From Kribbella kalugense (GTDB lineage Bacteria > Actinomycetota > Actinomycetes > Propionibacteriales > Kribbellaceae), in the NCBI RefSeq assembly GCF_004365875.1, contig NZ_SODF01000001.1:1798001-1862000 (forward strand): a DNA stretch of 64,000 bases. The letters run 5' to 3'. The translations under genes and the position numbers were made by a program. A model generated the notes under the pieces. That model made no database searches and had not been told where the DNA came from. It saw only the letters and a list, made by a program, of their open reading frames with translations. The first letter of the stretch is position 1; every line of letters starts with the position of its first letter. This document shows positions 18,927 through 26,332 of the stretch, piece by piece.

Positions 18927-18987
18927 GACTTTGAGAATCCACCAACCACAAATCGGCCGCAGAAACGGTCGGTGGCCTCTCAAAGTT
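18927..18987. repeat. 61-bp palindromic element, copy 2
   Basis: 21-nt arms at 18927-18947 and 18967-18987 match at 17 of 21 positions. Spacing and sequence of arms and centre parallel copy 1, both carrying ACTTTGAGAA and GAAACGGTCGGTGGC. It lies between the nuclease-like gene start and cphB. Confidence 0.85.
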
Positions 18988-19055
18988 GGAGGTGGCGGGA
19001 GGGGGAGGGATGGGGCGTGTGGAGGGAGTGGCGGGGGTGGTGGGGCGGTACGGCT

Positions 19056-19061
19056 TATTCT
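19056..19061 (+). promoter_or_regulatory. Leaderless -10 element of the cphBA operon
   Basis: TATTCT followed by 6 nt and the ATG of cphB at 19068. The preceding 90 nt is G-rich and lacks a ribosome-binding site at proper distance. Confidence 0.55.
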
Positions 19062-19067
19062 TCGGCT

Positions 19068-20150
19068 ATGTCAGAACTGCAGGGTGGGCCTGGAGCCCTG
19101 TTTGCGATCGGCGGCGCCGAGGACAAGCTGAAGAAGCGGATGGTGCTGCAGGAGTTCGTCGAGGCGGCCGGTGGAGCCAAGGCGCGGATCGTGGTGGTGC
19201 CCACCGCGTCCGCGCTCGGGCCCGACGTCATCGACGTGTACCGGGCGCTGTTCGCGGCGCTCGGTGCCGCGAGCGTGGTCGGCGTCCGCCCGGAGAACCG
19301 CGAGGACGCCGACGACCCGGCCTTCATCGCCCCGCTGAACGACGCGACCGGCATCTTCATGACCGGCGGTAACCAGCTCAAGCTGGCCGGCGTCGTCACC
19401 GGTACGGCGTTCGGCCGGGCGGTCACCGCCGCCCACGCGCGCGGTGCCGCGGTCGGCGGTACGTCGGCCGGCGCGAGCATCCTGGCCGAGCACATGATCG
19501 CGTTCGGCCGCTCCGGCGCGACCCCGCGGCAGCGGATGAGCCAGCTGTCCGGCGGTCTCGGACTGGTCCAGGGCGCGATCGTCGACCAGCACTTCGCCCA
19601 GCGGAACCGGTACGGCCGGCTGCTGTCGCTCGTCGCCCAGTCCCCCGGCCTGCTCGGGATCGGCGTGGACGAGGACACCGCGGCGGTCGTCCGCGGCACT
19701 CACCTGGAGGTCGTCGGCCGTGGTGCGGTGACGATCTTCGACGGCGGCCGGATCACGTCGAACGCCCACTCCGCCAAGCGATCCGAGCCGATTCTCGCGT
19801 CCGGCGTCGTACTGCATGTCTTGCCTGCGACCGCGACGTTCGACCTGCAGAACCGGGTGCTGTTGTCGTTCGGTCCGCAACCGCCGGCCGCGGAGATCGC
19901 CGAGATGGCGGCCGCCGAGGCGGATCTGCGCAAGCTGACCAAGGAGATCGCGGCCGAGGGCGTGTCACCGCGGTACTACGAGGAGCGCAAGAAGCGCGCG
20001 GGACGCCGTACGGCGAAGAAGTCTGCTGCGTCGATCGGGGCCGCGGAGTCCAGACCGGAGGCGACCGAGCCCCTGACCAGACCAACACAGGCGGCCGGCG
20101 CCGACTCCGACCTCCCCGACCGCACGCAAACAGACAACGGAACCACATGA
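19068..20150 (+). CDS. cphB: Cyanophycinase (peptidase S51)
   Basis: 360 residues. Cyanophycinase cuts the Asp-Arg polymer cyanophycin to beta-Asp-Arg dipeptides. The serine nucleophile Ser133 lies in GGTSAGASILAEHM, the nucleophile-elbow motif of S51, and the conserved FMTGGNQ loop and IVDQHFAQRNRYGRL helix are present. Catalytic homology ends near residue 285; the last 75 residues are a charged, then low-complexity tail (KKRAGRRTAKKSA) not usual for the family's 270-residue length. Its stop overlaps the cphA start (ATGA), so degradative and synthetic enzymes are translationally coupled. Confidence 0.93.
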   Translation: MSELQGGPGALFAIGGAEDKLKKRMVLQEFVEAAGGAKARIVVVPTASALGPDVIDVYRALFAALGAASVVGVRPENREDADDPAFIAPLNDATGIFMTGGNQLKLAGVVTGTAFGRAVTAAHARGAAVGGTSAGASILAEHMIAFGRSGATPRQRMSQLSGGLGLVQGAIVDQHFAQRNRYGRLLSLVAQSPGLLGIGVDEDTAAVVRGTHLEVVGRGAVTIFDGGRITSNAHSAKRSEPILASGVVLHVLPATATFDLQNRVLLSFGPQPPAAEIAEMAAAEADLRKLTKEIAAEGVSPRYYEERKKRAGRRTAKKSAASIGAAESRPEATEPLTRPTQAAGADSDLPDRTQTDNGTT

Positions 20151-22960
20151 CCGATACGCATGGCGCCCCCGCTCCGGACCTGAAGATCATCGAGACCCGC
20201 GTCTACCGCGGGCCGAACGTCTGGAGCTACGAGCCCGCGATCCACCTGGTCGTCGATCTCGGCTCGCTGGAGAACTTCCCGTCGAACACCATCCCCGGTT
20301 TCACCGAGCAGCTGCTGACCTACCTGCCCCGGCTCGACCAGCACCACTGCTCGCGCGGCCGGCGGGGCGGGTTCATCGAGCGACTGCAGGAAGGCACCTG
20401 GCTCGGGCACATCGCCGAGCACGTCGCGCTGCAGCTCCAGCAGGAAGCCGGCCACGACATGCGGCGCGGCAAGACGCGCCAGGTCAAGGGATCGCCGGGC
20501 ATCTACAACATCGTCTACGCGTACGCCGACGAGGCGGTCGGACTCGCCGCTGGTGAACTCGCCGTACGGTTCGTCAACAACCTGGTCCAGCCCCAAATGA
20601 AGAATGCACAGCCGGCGTTCGACTTCACCACCGGGCTGGAGCGGTTCATCAAGCAGGCCGAGCGGACCGCGTTCGGCCCGTCAACGCAGGCGATCGTGGA
20701 CGAGGCGGTGTCCCGGGACATCCCGTGGATCCGGCTGAACAAGGCCAGCCTGGTCCAGCTCGGTCAGGGCGTGCACGCGAAGCGGATCCGGGCCACGATG
20801 ACGTCCGAGACCGGTTCGATCGCGGTCGACGTCGCCAGCGACAAGGACCTGACCACGAGGCTGCTCGCGTCGGCCGGTCTGCCGGTGCCGCGGTCGGAGT
20901 CGGTACGTACGGTCGACCAGGCGGTCATGGTCGCGCACAAGATCGGCTACCCGGTGGTCTGCAAACCGCTCGACGGCAACCACGGCCGCGGCGTCTGCCT
21001 GAACCTGCAGAACGCGGACGAGTTGCGGGAGGCGTTCCCGATCGCGGCCGAGCAGTCCCGGCGCGGGTCCGTGATCGTGGAGAACTTCGTCACCGGCAAG
21101 GACTACCGCTGCCTGATCATCAACGGCCGGATGGAGGCGATCGCCGAACGCGTGCCCGCGCACGTGGTCGGCGACGGCATCCACACCGTGGCCGAGCTGG
21201 TCGACATCACCAACGCCGACCCGCGCCGCGGTGTCGGTCACGAGAAGATCCTGACCCGGATCACCATCAACGCGGCCGCACGGCAGCTCGTCCGGGACCA
21301 GGGTTTCGAGCTGGACGACGTACCGCCGGAAGAGCTGATGGTGAAGCTGACGCTCACCGGCAACATGTCCACCGGTGGCATCTCGATCGACCGGACCTGG
21401 GAGGCGCACCCGGAGAACGTCGAGATCGCCGAGGAGGCGGCCCGGATGATCGGGCTCGACATCGCCGGTATCGACTTCATCTGCCCGGACATCACCCAGC
21501 CGGTGCGCGAGACCGGCGGCGCGATCTGCGAGGTGAACGCGGCGCCCGGGTTCCGGATGCACACGAACCCGACGATCGGCGAGCCACAGTACATCGCGAA
21601 GCCGGTGGTGGACATGCTGTTCCCGCCGGGTGCGACCAGCCGGATCCCGATCGTCGCGGTGACCGGGACGAACGGCAAGACCACCACCTCGCGGATGATC
21701 AGCCACGTCTTCAAGGGGCTCGGTCGCAAGGTCGGTATGACGTCGACCGACGGCATCGTGATCGACGAGCGGCTGGTGATCCGGCAGGACGCGTCCGGGC
21801 CGAAGTCCGCCCGGATGGTGCTGCAGAACCCGCGGGTCGACTTCGCGGTCTTCGAGGTGGCGCGCGGCGGGATCCTGCGCGAGGGGCTCGGGTACGAGCG
21901 CAATGACGTGGCCGTGGTGCTGAACGTGCAGCCGGATCACCTTGGCATGCGTGGCATCGACACCCTCGAGCAGCTCGCGGACGTGAAGGCGGTCCTGGTC
22001 GAGGCGGTGCCGCGGACGGGGTACGCCGTACTGAACGCGGACGACCCGTTGGTGCGGAAGATGCGCCGGAAATGTTCGGGTCAGGTCGTGTGGTTCAGCA
22101 TGGCCGAGCCGGGCAGCGAGGTCCGCGAGTACATCGAGGGGCACTGCCGGCGGGGTGGTCGCGCGGTGGTGCTAGAGCGGTCCGACCTGGGCGACATGAT
22201 CGTGGTGAGGCACGGGCGGCGGTCGATGCAGCTGGCGTGGACTCACTTGCTGCCGGCAACGTTCGGTGGGCGGGCGATGATGAACGTGCAGAACGCGATG
22301 GCGGCCGCCGCGGCGGCGTTCGCGGCCGGTGCGTCGTTGCACGACATCCGGCAGGGGCTGCGGACGTTCAGTACGTCGTACTACCTGTCGCCGGGCCGGT
22401 TGAACGAGATCGACGTCGACGGCCGCACGGTGATCGTGGACTACTGCCACAACGCGCCGGCGATGCGGATGCTCGGGGACTTCGTCGACAAGATCGGTGA
22501 AAGCCTGAGCGCGTCGTCGGAGCTCGGACGGCCGTCGCGGATCGGTGTGATCGCGACCGCGGGCGACCGGCGCGACGACGACATCCGCGAACTGGGCGAG
22601 GTCGCGGCGCAGCACTTCGACGTGGTCATCGTCCGCGAGGACGCCCGCCTCCGCGGCCGGAAACGTGGCGAAGCAGCCGCTCTGATCGCAACCGGCGTGC
22701 ATACCGCGATGGAGCAGGGCGCCCGCTGCCGTCAGGTCGATACCGTCCTGGAGGAGCTGGACGCGGTCCGGCACGCCCTCAGCCGCTCCAACCCGGGCGA
22801 CCTCGTCGTACTGTGCGTCGACCAGCACCAGTCGGTCCTGGCCGAACTCGAGTCGGTGTCCCACCTCGCCCAGGCCGGCGCACGGTCCGGCGACGAAGGC
22901 GGCGACCCGGACTTCGTCCTCCCGGACGAGGAAGCCGGCGAGGTCACCGTCCCCAGTTAG
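20147..22960 (+). CDS. cphA: Cyanophycin synthetase CphA
   Basis: 937 residues with the three CphA parts in order: an N-terminal domain (ETRVYRGPNVWSYEPAIHLV onward, residues 1-160), an ATP-grasp domain that activates the polymer end for Asp addition (VVCKPLDGNHGRGVCLNL near 270), and a Mur-ligase-like domain that adds Arg (P-loop VTGTNGKTTTSRM near 505, ARGGILREGLGYE, VDYCHNAPAMRML). It builds the nitrogen store multi-L-arginyl-poly-L-aspartate. The C-terminal 50 residues are an acidic extension. It is co-expressed with cphB by a 4-nt overlap and converges with the membrane-protein gene on the other strand (4-nt overlap). Confidence 0.95.
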   Translation: MTDTHGAPAPDLKIIETRVYRGPNVWSYEPAIHLVVDLGSLENFPSNTIPGFTEQLLTYLPRLDQHHCSRGRRGGFIERLQEGTWLGHIAEHVALQLQQEAGHDMRRGKTRQVKGSPGIYNIVYAYADEAVGLAAGELAVRFVNNLVQPQMKNAQPAFDFTTGLERFIKQAERTAFGPSTQAIVDEAVSRDIPWIRLNKASLVQLGQGVHAKRIRATMTSETGSIAVDVASDKDLTTRLLASAGLPVPRSESVRTVDQAVMVAHKIGYPVVCKPLDGNHGRGVCLNLQNADELREAFPIAAEQSRRGSVIVENFVTGKDYRCLIINGRMEAIAERVPAHVVGDGIHTVAELVDITNADPRRGVGHEKILTRITINAAARQLVRDQGFELDDVPPEELMVKLTLTGNMSTGGISIDRTWEAHPENVEIAEEAARMIGLDIAGIDFICPDITQPVRETGGAICEVNAAPGFRMHTNPTIGEPQYIAKPVVDMLFPPGATSRIPIVAVTGTNGKTTTSRMISHVFKGLGRKVGMTSTDGIVIDERLVIRQDASGPKSARMVLQNPRVDFAVFEVARGGILREGLGYERNDVAVVLNVQPDHLGMRGIDTLEQLADVKAVLVEAVPRTGYAVLNADDPLVRKMRRKCSGQVVWFSMAEPGSEVREYIEGHCRRGGRAVVLERSDLGDMIVVRHGRRSMQLAWTHLLPATFGGRAMMNVQNAMAAAAAAFAAGASLHDIRQGLRTFSTSYYLSPGRLNEIDVDGRTVIVDYCHNAPAMRMLGDFVDKIGESLSASSELGRPSRIGVIATAGDRRDDDIRELGEVAAQHFDVVIVREDARLRGRKRGEAAALIATGVHTAMEQGARCRQVDTVLEELDAVRHALSRSNPGDLVVLCVDQHQSVLAELESVSHLAQAGARSGDEGGDPDFVLPDEEAGEVTVPS

Positions 22961-23811
22961 TTCACCGGTTGGCGACGGGGCAGGAGGCGGCGATGGGCCT
23001 CCTGCTCGTCGATCCAGTCGAGGTCGTCGGAGAGTACGGCGTCGTTCGACTTGTCGGCGTACGGGTCGGGGGGTGGCGGTGGTGGCGGGAGTGCGCGGAG
23101 CTTGAGCGCCACCATCGGGATCGCGAGCAGTACGGCGACCACCATCCACGGCCAGTACTCCCGCAGCAGCGGTGCGAAGGACTGGAAGAAGGCCTCGGTC
23201 GATGCGTCCCCAACCGCGTCCATCGGCTTGCCGTTCGAGCGGGCGACCACCTGCACGGCCTCGACGAAGCCGTTGCAGACCAGGTAGAACCCGGCCAGCG
23301 GAATCCAGGACCCCACTGACCGCCAGCCGCGCTTCCAGCAGGCGAAGTACAGCAGCAGCGCGAGCCCGGCGCCGACCAGCAGGCCGTTGAGCTGCCAGAT
23401 CCACTGCCAGTCGCGTAGCTGCTCAGCGGGTCGCTGGGCGTACCACGCCACCGGCAGCGCGAGTGCGAACGCTGCAAGCACCGAGCTTCTGGTGCCCAGG
23501 GCACCGAACAGCCCACCCAGAGCGCTTGCCACCAGCAACGTGACCAGCATGTCCCGGTCGGAGAACGAGTTCCCGGTCAGCCACCACATGCCCGCGGCAA
23601 CGACCAGCAGCACCGGTACGGCGATCCGCACCCGGCCGATCAGCAGTCCGGCGAGCACTCCACCGGCGAACCCACCGAGCAGCAGCAGGTCGACCCGCGG
23701 CGGCACGAAGTACGTCGCACCGTCCGGCAGCCCTTTCAGGTACGTCGCGGAGAAGCCGCCGATGAACCAGGCGACCACCGCGGCCGGGATCGACCACAGG
23801 TAGCGCATCAC
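22957..23811 (-). CDS. Unknown polytopic membrane protein
   Basis: 284 residues from GTG 23811, with an ATG immediately after it at 23808. About seven hydrophobic segments: residues 5-25, 44-62, 65-82, 88-105, 110-122, 140-158, 168-182 and one near 218-237, with a proline run (seven residues) at about 242 and an acidic/basic cytoplasmic tail. I recognise no transporter signature. It is the last gene of the minus-strand operon fabG-fabI-Mur ligase, 37 nt behind the Mur ligase, and ends against cphA. A role beside the Mur ligase, such as export or anchoring of its product, is only an inference from position. Confidence 0.7.
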   Translation of the reverse strand: MMRYLWSIPAAVVAWFIGGFSATYLKGLPDGATYFVPPRVDLLLLGGFAGGVLAGLLIGRVRIAVPVLLVVAAGMWWLTGNSFSDRDMLVTLLVASALGGLFGALGTRSSVLAAFALALPVAWYAQRPAEQLRDWQWIWQLNGLLVGAGLALLLYFACWKRGWRSVGSWIPLAGFYLVCNGFVEAVQVVARSNGKPMDAVGDASTEAFFQSFAPLLREYWPWMVVAVLLAIPMVALKLRALPPPPPPPDPYADKSNDAVLSDDLDWIDEQEAHRRLLPRRQPVN

Positions 23812-23848: not shown

Positions 23849-25534
23849 TTAGTGCTGGGCTCTCTCGACCTTGCTCTTCAAGATCTCCGGTGTGTCGACA
23901 GTAGCTCCCTCGGACCGCAACCAGCCGTCAAGACTCGCCCGATCCTGCAGAGACATCACCGCGACGACATCCCCGGCCTGCGCCTCAGCGACCAGTGCCT
24001 GGGCCGCCTCGAGCTCGGTCGGGTACGCCGGTACGTCGTCCACGCCGACCGACGCAGCACCCTCCCGGAACACCGCCTCGAGCTCAGCCGGCGGCCGTCC
24101 GCGCAGGTAGTCGCTCTTGTGGCCGATCGCCACCCGGTCGGTCCCCCGCGCACCCATCGCGCCCAGAGCGGCGACCATGTCGTCGGCCCGGTCCCCCGGC
24201 GATCCGAGCGCCAGCATCAGCCGCCCGCCCTCCGGCCGGACGCCGTTCATGATCTCGAGCAGCGCCTCCAGCCCGGCCTCGTTGTGGGCGAGATCGATGA
24301 CGACGGTGAAGTCGCGCAGCGAGTACATGTTCATCCGGCCGGGGTTGTTCTCGTTCGGTGCGAACGTGCTCAGCCCCTCGATCACCGCGGCCCGCGGCAA
24401 CCCCAGCCCGAGCGCCGCCGACGCCGCGGCCAGCGTGTTCTCGACGTTGTAGTGCGACAACCCCGACAGCGTCATCGGTACGTCGACAACCTTCAGCAAC
24501 GGCTCCGGGTCGCGCGACTGATCGAGCACGGTCACGTATCCGTCGAGGACAGTCGTCGCCCGGCCGCCTTCGTCGAGGACCGCCCGGATCGACGGCGAGT
24601 CCGGCTCGCGCGAGAACACCCAGCACTTGGCCGGCGAACCGAGCCGCATCGCGAACGTCCGCGGGTCGTCGCCGTTCACCACGCACCAGCCGCGCGGACG
24701 GGTGATGTGGGTGATGACCGCCTTCACCTCGGCGAGCTGGTCGACGGTGTCGATCCCGCCCAGGCCGAGGTGGTCCGCGCTGACGTTGGTGACCACCGAG
24801 ACGTCGTTGTACGCGACCCCGATCCCCCGGCGCAGGATCCCGCCGCGAGCGGTCTCCGTCACCGCGAGCTGGATGCCGGGCTGGGACAGCACTTGTCCGG
24901 CGCCGCTCGGTCCGGAGAAGTCGCCGTACTTCACGAGTTCGCCGTCGAAGTACACACCGTCGGTGCTCGACCAGCCGACGTGCAGTCCGGCGGCCCGGCC
25001 GATGTGCGCGATCATCCGCGACGTGGTCGTCTTGCCGTTCGTCCCGGTCACCGCAACTACCGGGATCTTCGGGCGCAGGGTCGGCGGCGGGTTGCCCGCC
25101 GGCTCGTCCCGCACCCGCGTCCCCACGGACGCGATCAACTCAGTCAGATCCTCGGCCCCGAACGCGTCCAGGACCTCGACGATCGCGGCCCCGAGTGCCC
25201 GAGCCCGGGTCTCATGCGCCCATGGGAAGGCCACGACAAGCCGGCGTACGTCGGACTCCGGGCGAACCCGGACGCCGATCCGGCCGATCCCGGCCTCCCG
25301 CGCAATTCGCCGTACGACGTGACCGACGACGCGGATCGCGAACCGCTGCCGGAAGCCCGACCCGATCCGGCCCGGCCGGGTGGTGCCGAGACCGATCGCC
25401 TGTCCATAAGCCTTTGCCGCCGGCGCCGGAGCGTCGACGAGTGCGGACACGTCCAGCGTCAGCTTGACCGCGGCACGACTGAAGTAGAGGTTGGCGCCAT
25501 CGAGAACACGGAGCTCAACCAGCGAGGTGGCCAA
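23849..25534 (-). CDS. CphA-like Mur ligase lacking the ATP-grasp domain
   Basis: 561 residues. Residues 1-150 resemble the CphA N-terminal domain (LVELRVLDGANLYF compares with CphA IETRVYRGPNVWSY, and GHVVRRIAREAG with GHIAEHVALQLQQEAG). It then passes straight to a Mur-ligase domain with P-loop VTGTNGKTTTSRMIAH at 162-177, TARGGILRRGIGVAYND and VIDLAHNEAGLEAL, all close to the neighbouring CphA. The roughly 300-residue ATP-grasp domain is missing. It should ligate an amino acid to a carboxylate with ATP, but the substrate is unknown. A TTG start 3 nt after fabI is forced by an in-frame stop just upstream, with GGGAG before it. Confidence 0.88.
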   Translation of the reverse strand: MATSLVELRVLDGANLYFSRAAVKLTLDVSALVDAPAPAAKAYGQAIGLGTTRPGRIGSGFRQRFAIRVVGHVVRRIAREAGIGRIGVRVRPESDVRRLVVAFPWAHETRARALGAAIVEVLDAFGAEDLTELIASVGTRVRDEPAGNPPPTLRPKIPVVAVTGTNGKTTTSRMIAHIGRAAGLHVGWSSTDGVYFDGELVKYGDFSGPSGAGQVLSQPGIQLAVTETARGGILRRGIGVAYNDVSVVTNVSADHLGLGGIDTVDQLAEVKAVITHITRPRGWCVVNGDDPRTFAMRLGSPAKCWVFSREPDSPSIRAVLDEGGRATTVLDGYVTVLDQSRDPEPLLKVVDVPMTLSGLSHYNVENTLAAASAALGLGLPRAAVIEGLSTFAPNENNPGRMNMYSLRDFTVVIDLAHNEAGLEALLEIMNGVRPEGGRLMLALGSPGDRADDMVAALGAMGARGTDRVAIGHKSDYLRGRPPAELEAVFREGAASVGVDDVPAYPTELEAAQALVAEAQAGDVVAVMSLQDRASLDGWLRSEGATVDTPEILKSKVERAQH

Positions 25535-25537
25535 ACC

Positions 25538-26308
25538 CTACGCTCCCATCGCGTGGAAGCCACCGTCGACGTGGATGATCTCGCCGGTGGTCGAAGGGAA
25601 GAAGTCACTCAGCAGGGCCACGATTGTGCGGCCGGTCGGCTCGAGGTCGGTCGGATCCCAGCCGAGCGGCGCGCGGTCCAGCCATGGCCCCTCGAACTTC
25701 TCGAAGCCCGGAATCGCCTTCGCAGCCAGCGTTTTCAGCGGACCGGCCGAGACCAGGTTGCACCGGATGCCCTGGGCACCGAGATCACGCGCGAGGTACC
25801 GACTGGTCGACTCGAGAGCAGCCTTGGCCACACCCATCCAGTCGTACCCGGGCCAAGCGACGGTCGCGTCGAAGGTCATCCCGACGACACTGCCACCGCG
25901 GCCCATCAACGGCGCGCAGGTGACCGCAAGGGACTTGAGGCTGTACGCCGACACGTGGACAGCCTGGGCCACGTCGTCCCAGGGTCCGTCGAGGAACTTG
26001 CCGCCGAGGATCGTCTCCGGGTTGCCGTACGCGATCGAGTGCACGACGCCGTCCAGACCGTCGACGTGCTCACGGATCGCGTCCGGCAGGGCAGCCAGGT
26101 GCTCCGCGTTGGTGACGTCGAGCTCCAGCACCGGCGGCTCGGTCGGCAGGCGTTTGGCAATCCGTTTGGTGATGCTCAGCGCCCGGCCGAAGTTCGAGAT
26201 CAGCACGGTGGCGCCTTGTTCCTGCGCCACTTTGGCGGTGGCGAAACCGATCGAGGAGTCCAGCGTGACTCCGGCGACCAGGATCCGCTTGCCGTCGAGG
26301 ATGCCCAC
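25538..26308 (-). CDS. fabI: Enoyl-ACP reductase (NADH) FabI/InhA
   Basis: 256 residues. FabI performs the last reduction of type II fatty-acid elongation. The atypical SDR glycine motif VAGVTLDSSIGFATAKVAQ (residues 12-30), with GRALSITKRIAKRL following, and the active-site YDWMGVAKAAL with Tyr and Lys six apart (YxxxxxxK, the enoyl-reductase variant) identify it. The C-terminus IIHVDGGFHAMG is typical. It lies 24 nt behind fabG and 3 nt before the Mur ligase. It is the probable target class of isoniazid/triclosan-type inhibitors. Confidence 0.95.
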   Translation of the reverse strand: MGILDGKRILVAGVTLDSSIGFATAKVAQEQGATVLISNFGRALSITKRIAKRLPTEPPVLELDVTNAEHLAALPDAIREHVDGLDGVVHSIAYGNPETILGGKFLDGPWDDVAQAVHVSAYSLKSLAVTCAPLMGRGGSVVGMTFDATVAWPGYDWMGVAKAALESTSRYLARDLGAQGIRCNLVSAGPLKTLAAKAIPGFEKFEGPWLDRAPLGWDPTDLEPTGRTIVALLSDFFPSTTGEIIHVDGGFHAMGA

Positions 26309-26332
26309 CGGCTTCCCTTTCTGAAGTGAGAG

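Follow-up and report, generated by a model that had tools for sequence, protein, structure and literature searches.

The window analysed here is a stretch of 64,000 nucleotides from the genome of Kribbella kalugense (contig NZ_SODF01000001.1), and it carries cphB and cphA together with the gene of a second, shorter ligase. The cyanophycinase gene cphB (18972-20150, plus strand) is recognised by TIGR02069 with 240.6 bits (cut-off 126.6), and its 3' end overlaps the start of cphA by 4 bases. Its open frame has 32 residues ahead of an ATG at 19068, which may be the true start. The cphA gene (20147-22960, plus strand) encodes a full-length CphA1 of 937 residues (TIGR02068, 1170.9 bits, cut-off 850), in which both the Cx19HxxEH motif and the Mur motifs are intact. 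Convergent with cphA lies the short ligase gene (23849-25534), which starts with TTG and encodes 561 residues with no ATP-grasp domain; the initial annotation had given this open reading frame exactly, and its strand, which was not stated there, is minus. Between the two genes, also on the minus strand, is an open reading frame for a membrane-like protein of 284 residues (22957-23811), which has no Pfam or NCBIfam match and does not belong to the neighbour families common to other loci. On its other side, the short ligase starts three bases past the end of inhA/fabI (25538-26308, minus strand), which in turn lies downstream of a fabG1-like gene. An open frame of 825 codons (23852-26329, plus strand) runs antisense to both the short ligase and inhA, and has the appearance of a GC-rich shadow frame.

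Domains and active site of the short ligase

The protein was initially described as an N domain and a Mur ligase domain, both of the CphA type and directly adjoining, with no ATP-grasp domain, and this architecture is borne out. TIGR02068 matches it only at model positions 476-848, the Mur part, with 371.9 bits, so that the cut-off of 850 is not reached. Pfam recognises Mur_ligase_M and Mur_ligase_C, and a search of the PDB with the Mur domain finds cyanophycin synthases to be closest (best E 1.6e-75). There is no ATP-grasp match in Pfam or NCBIfam, and the N domain runs straight into the P-loop. By profile match and residue alignment, the Mur (M) domain extends over residues 154-528 (23951-25075, minus strand).

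The N domain occupies residues 1-148 (25091-25534, minus strand). Pfam gives no N-domain match for the window protein, nor does PF18921 match any of 19 N domains of the family at E<=1, and the assignment is therefore based on profile and fold comparison. A profile of the family N domains aligned with a profile of 26 CphA N domains over 132 collinear columns (hhalign, prob 90, E 1.6e-6); the score was 44.5, compared with at most 15.0 (prob <=0.4) in 40 column-shuffled controls and 10.7 for the reversed profile. An AF2 model of residues 1-150 alone (pLDDT 82.3, pTM 0.81) had as its best eleven VIA entries only CphA1 or CphA2 structures, with Z of 8.1-11.3, while the next fold scored 5.9. The top match was 7lgq_A (Z 11.3, 140 residues, rmsd 3.1), and Foldseek again placed CphA entries at the top of its list, with weak E-values (best 3.2e-3, prob 1.00). 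The CphA-type N domain proposed for residues 1-150 thus stands on both the fold and the profile comparison.

Most CphA1 N domains (83% of nr70 CphA1) are made primer-generating endo-cyanophycinases by the Cx19HxxEH motif, as reported in PMC9262961. The motif is present in all 19 actinobacterial CphA1s checked, but it is absent from the window ligase, which has GHVVRR in its place, and from every other scanned member of the ligase clade. It is also missing from all four plasmid CphA1s that adjoin a short ligase (see below). The mean charge of the N domain is +8.5 in 21 actinobacterial ligases (a set without L030, L041 and L042) and -10.5 in four of the alphaproteobacterial type. Charge was dropped as a clue to the ligand, being of opposite sign in the two lineages, and this split does not favour one common ligand. 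In the alphaproteobacterial-type ligases the N region matches the CphA N-plus-linker and actinobacterial N profiles weakly (hhalign prob 4.5 and 19) and shows only an LGHGxGSQ stretch resembling the LGQG of CphA, plus a GPNLY-like start, so that it is an unconfirmed candidate for a CphA N domain.

Active-site residues were compared between 33 CphA1s and 28 ligases, 24 actinobacterial and 4 from plasmids. Five of the 24 are from Kribbella and are not independent of one another, and two (L041 and L042), at contig ends, are without the N domain; L034 and L039 are included, while KNUC_MurA, the MurE rows, the fragments L043 and L044, and the G297 and G307 copies are excluded. At 61 of the positions conserved in at least 90% of the CphA1s, among them the catalytic ones, no fewer than 90% of the 24 actinobacterial ligases have the same residue; at the other 32 fewer do. 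The residues kept comprise K168 and T170 of the P-loop, E227, D254, H255, K271, N366, R400, D414, H417, N418, R449 and the RGR arginines R478 and R480. Catalytic-site roles in TeCphA1 are described for K499, T500, T522, E558, R731 and H748 (PMC9427784), and in SuCphA1 a D585/H586 double mutant has an inactive M domain (PMC9262961). By alignment, the latter pair corresponds to D254-H255 of the short ligase. The first impression that the Mur P-loop and the motifs following it are intact was correct, and extends across the family. Both domains are under purifying selection relative to eight Kribbella orthologues (dN/dS 0.06-0.13; the value for the N domain of L018 is void because the alignment is out of register). 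The short ligase is a family, not a broken copy or fragment.

The loops around the substrates are another matter. The acceptor loop GPxSA of CphA1 (S554, 33/33) is GPxGA in all ligases, with G211 in 24/24 actinobacterial and 4/4 plasmid members. R809 of CphA1 (33/33) is replaced by T, A or S, by D in two ligases and by P in one; D812 (33/33) becomes I, M, L or V in Actinomycetota and E or D in the plasmid type; and D832 (31/33) gives way to L/K or N/L. Specific to the ligases are Y476 and N397 (28/28 each) and R532 (27/28), and both donor-pocket loops carry one-residue insertions relative to CphA1. We take the first loop to lie towards the acceptor and the remaining ones towards the incoming amino acid, and assign D812, D832 and R809 to the donor site by alignment with MurE. 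As judged by alignment only, across loops with these insertions, the side-chain pocket of the short ligase does not look like that of CphA1. The GDR arginine, which in MurE presumably binds the carboxylate of the incoming amino acid, is kept, as are the RGR arginines, and an alpha-amino acid substrate is therefore still expected. The full-length AF2 model (mean pLDDT 56, from input rows that were near-identical Kribbella proteins only) is poor in the Mur domain and was for this reason left out of the pocket arguments.

Distribution and ancestry

Searches of genome contigs returned 20 related loci with 86-96% identity, 19 of them named Kribbella. The remaining one, from Streptomyces sp. SID13031, is Kribbella-like (89% identity), and its organism label looks doubtful. 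With the short ligase as query, 22 of 296 Actinomycetota genomes were positive, and CphA was matched in 21 of these, the exception being G234, whose genome is 67% complete. Conversely, TIGR02068 identified 22 CphA-positive genomes over the cut-off among 396 Actinomycetota, and all 22 have the short ligase, though G149 and G192 show it as fragments on draft contigs. Besides these, the ligase occurs only in G138, which has a CphA fragment, and in G234. Of the 22 CphA-positive genomes, 17 have ligase and cphA together on a contig, convergent in every case. One further genome sample overlapped largely with the set of 396 and was not counted as independent. The genome searches score some candidates per genome, and absence here means not found at the stated threshold.

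Within the Propionibacteriales, 98 of 293 genomes have one CphA over the cut-off, and 97 of these 98 have the short ligase. In 96 it appears as a second, sub-cut-off TIGR02068 match at E<=1e-80, which covers the Mur part only in all 52 cases listed, and in the 97th (G655) it is split over two contigs. No copy was found in G437, where the contig ends 2 kb after cphA. Among the 52 listed pairs, 50 share a contig and all 50 are convergent, with a gap between the matches of 158-8906 bases (median 2.5 kb); in G422 and G653 the ligase and cphA are on separate contigs. The only neighbours of the ligase shared throughout the loci are cphA and cphB, the latter lying beside cphA in 23/23 loci (L053-L075). 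The co-occurrence with cphA and cphB that had been proposed for survey is close, and with few exceptions the actinobacterial cphA genes examined are accompanied by the short ligase as a conserved partner. A search of viral contigs with P0008 found no relative.

The window protein also matched 27 plasmid records, of which 17 loci were examined. Four of them (L083, L084, L086 and L090) carry an operon of cphB, cphA and a 'Mur ligase family protein'. Three of the four are alphaproteobacterial, from Shinella zoogloeoides and two Ruegeria; the fourth record is labelled Roseateles sp. XES5 (UNVERIFIED_ORG). The organism label of this last plasmid (L084) looks doubtful, as the operon is Shinella-like and its ligase 94% identical. 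Eight other loci (L085, L091-L094 and L097-L099), from Rhizobium, Mesorhizobium, Pelagibacterium, Sphingobium and four Deinococcus, have the order cphA-iaaA-cphB. There are therefore two types of plasmid cph operon, one with the ligase and without iaaA (4/4), the other with iaaA and without a ligase of this clade (8/8). Just upstream of cphB-cphA-ligase in Ruegeria sp. AD91A are genes for a saccharopine dehydrogenase-like protein and an aldehyde dehydrogenase (L086:2378-4999), a possible hint at lysine metabolism.

A phylogeny of Mur domains, as the initial annotation had suggested, places the short ligases with CphA and not with MurE: they group with CphA with 100/100 support apart from three MurE rows. 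In this tree (which omits L034, L039 and KNUC_MurB) the ligases, 22 from Actinomycetota and 4 from plasmids, fall into a single clade (98/93), separate from the CphA1s. A reduced tree of 47 rows gave the ligase split 100/99; it omits 21 of 68 rows (near-duplicates, Legionella, all MurE and KNUC_MurA) and counts two Deinococcus 'Mur' rows as CphA. A separate origin from the local CphA1s was rejected for both the plasmid type (p-AU 0.008) and Actinomycetota (p-AU 0.014), in tests whose groups were named after the first tree and which involve long branches. The actinobacterial and plasmid ligases are one clade across two phyla. Their ATP-grasp domain may have been lost rather than never present.

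Possible role in cyanophycin metabolism

According to PMC9427784, a single enzyme carries out cyanophycin synthesis. That almost all of the actinobacterial cphA genes examined have a conserved second ligase next to them, as do some plasmid operons, suggests that one step of the pathway in these bacteria is undescribed. A family of short N+M ligases is not described in the open-access literature searched, including the accessible portions of PMC9262961, PMC9427784, PMC11915815 and PMC10206079, and within these bounds the initial statement that the substrate is undescribed holds. The short ligase has in common with CphA1 the fold of the N domain, the Mur catalytic residues and the gene cluster, but differs in having neither ATP-grasp domain nor Cx19HxxEH, in GPxGA instead of GPxSA, in its donor-pocket loops, and in its separate clade. 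The cyanobacterial CphA2, which repolymerises beta-Asp-Arg, is likewise related to CphA1 and reduced, and its N domain has no peptidase motif (PMC9262961). Its reduction went the other way, as it works by the G domain and has neither Mur P-loop nor lid (PMC9427784), and this opposition, pointed out at the outset, agrees with the kept Mur motifs and missing ATP-grasp match of the short ligase.

We tentatively favour a reading, which could well prove wrong, in which the short ligase belongs to the cyanophycin system as a dedicated, ATP-dependent amide ligase of the Mur type that is active, has its own substrate and forms a bond other than the Asp-Arg bond of CphA1. It would be a paralogue of CphA1 working beside it. 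Its N domain, having no peptidase motif, may be a docking surface for cyanophycin or fragments of it, while the M domain would activate a carboxylate of the polymer or fragment as an acyl phosphate and couple it to an alpha-amino acid, probably one other than arginine, through the amine of the latter. The adjoining CphA1 and CphB are ordinary by the family models, so a rare or terminal modification (an end cap, a primer or the processing of fragments) would be more likely than a change in every repeat, and the polymer itself is probably ordinary. The strongest support for this reading is the genetic tie to cphA-cphB together with the single clade, and its weakest step is the nature of the bond. 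A point against the reading is that position D812 is still acidic in the alphaproteobacterial members.

The short ligase might instead carry out the M-domain reaction of CphA1, the addition of arginine to the Asp side chain, in trans, and so finish or repair chains or supply primer. Such an auxiliary arginine ligase is doubtful, though it deserves serious thought: CphA1 is the nearest relative of the M domain (371.9 bits), whose catalytic residues are kept, and help in priming would be useful to the four plasmid CphA1s that have no self-priming Cx19HxxEH. It is hard to square with the fixed changes in acceptor loop and donor pocket, and a duplicate activity is not obviously needed where 19/19 actinobacterial CphA1s have the self-priming motif and a complete M domain. 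The remodelled substrate loops, and N-domain charges that are far apart between the two lineages, would also suit a ligase for some other small isopeptide or peptide made beside cyanophycin, such as a beta-aspartyl dipeptide or a signal. Such a product would make it hard to account for the pairing with cphA in nearly every case and for the plasmid operons with cphB-cphA, and we consider this reading unlikely.

A catalytically silent regulator or scaffold, binding CphA1 or the polymer by its N domain, is very improbable. The absence of the peptidase motif from the N domain would fit, and a paralogue of a tetrameric enzyme could conceivably form mixed oligomers, but the P-loop, E227, the K271 position and the lid residues R400, H417 and N418 are kept in the family, and purifying selection is similar on both domains. 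An ordinary cell-wall ligase of the MurE/MurT type that merely resembles CphA has a negligible chance of being correct. The short ligase shares with MurE the Mur ligase fold and the GDR arginine, and weakly matches models for MurE, MurT and pseudomurein ligase; yet the best MurE model gives 99.6 bits (cut-off 476) and MurT 43.1 bits (cut-off 800). MurE, furthermore, has no CphA N domain, and has DNPR and KGHE motifs where the short ligase has YLRGR and an R-ending loop. A MurE/MurT identity, which by the initial annotation would have overturned the relationship to CphA, is refuted by these profile scores, the M-domain tree and the N-domain fold.

Unexpectedly, the known dipeptidases that cleave beta-Asp-Arg were seldom found in these organisms. 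In the Kribbella genome PF01112 (IaaA) finds nothing, and matches to IadA stay below the threshold. Across the 98 CphA-positive Propionibacteriales, PF01112 was matched in two (G510 and G586) and IadA (TIGR01975) in none at E<=1e-50, leaving 96 in which neither known beta-Asp-Arg dipeptidase was found. Fourteen other CphA-positive Actinomycetota genomes (part of the 21 besides G000 in the survey of 396) gave PF01112 in one (G139) and IadA in none. Both are rare in the 195 CphA-negative Propionibacteriales as well (PF01112 in 21, IadA in 1), which indicates a lineage background and not a loss tied to the ligase. These counts disagree with Table 2 of PMC10206079, where IadA and/or IaaA are listed for 35/35 CphA1-bearing Actinomycetota genomes; searches of that paper's main text found no thresholds for its own scans. 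By our counts, the last step of cyanophycin breakdown in these genomes lacks an explanation by IaaA or IadA.

One specific variant, which we regard as very unlikely, is that the short ligase takes the dipeptide beta-Asp-Arg released by cyanophycinase and adds Asp at its free carboxylate, giving (beta-Asp-Arg)-Asp, reported as the minimal primer of CphA1 (PMC9262961). Four observations hint at this without proving it: the acidic donor-site residues of CphA1 are lost, R532 and Y476 are gained, Gly replaces Ser in the acceptor loop, and the searches for the dipeptidases came up empty in most genomes. If true, such Asp addition would return the dipeptide to new chains where no beta-Asp-Arg dipeptidase is recognisable, a salvage step like that of CphA2 in which a Mur domain takes the place of ATP-grasp. 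The reverse reaction, making ATP from beta-Asp-Arg, was considered and rejected, as on general reasoning it is energetically unlikely at cellular levels of Asp and Arg. Returning to the favoured reading of a dedicated ligase with its own substrate, the enzyme may account for the start, end or recycling of chains in bacteria without matches to the usual dipeptidases, and it gives a means of making modified cyanophycins. The reading is directly testable, since substrates, assays and structures exist for CphA1.

Other CphA relatives with a reduced ATP-grasp region

Proteins of similar layout occur outside the ligase clade. Legionella adelaidensis encodes a 622-residue N + Mur protein (P0009; L088:4326-6194) with no recognised ATP-grasp domain, adjoining cphB and iaaA; its peptidase motif, unlike that of the short ligase, is intact. 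Deinococcus deserti (L089) likewise has an N + Mur protein with no recognised ATP-grasp domain. These two branch elsewhere, the former with a Chryseobacterium CphA, in a group outside both ligases and CphA1s of the M-domain tree, and the latter with Deinococcus CphA, and they are independent reductions. In this Deinococcus side branch (L089:5872-8046, L087:3720-6236 and L085:4705-7204) the ATP-grasp domain is absent or weakly matched. One of the eight cphA-iaaA-cphB loci above, that of Deinococcus sp. KNUC1210, contains another CphA-like copy downstream of cphB, which is split and annotated as two overlapping genes, as if frameshifted.
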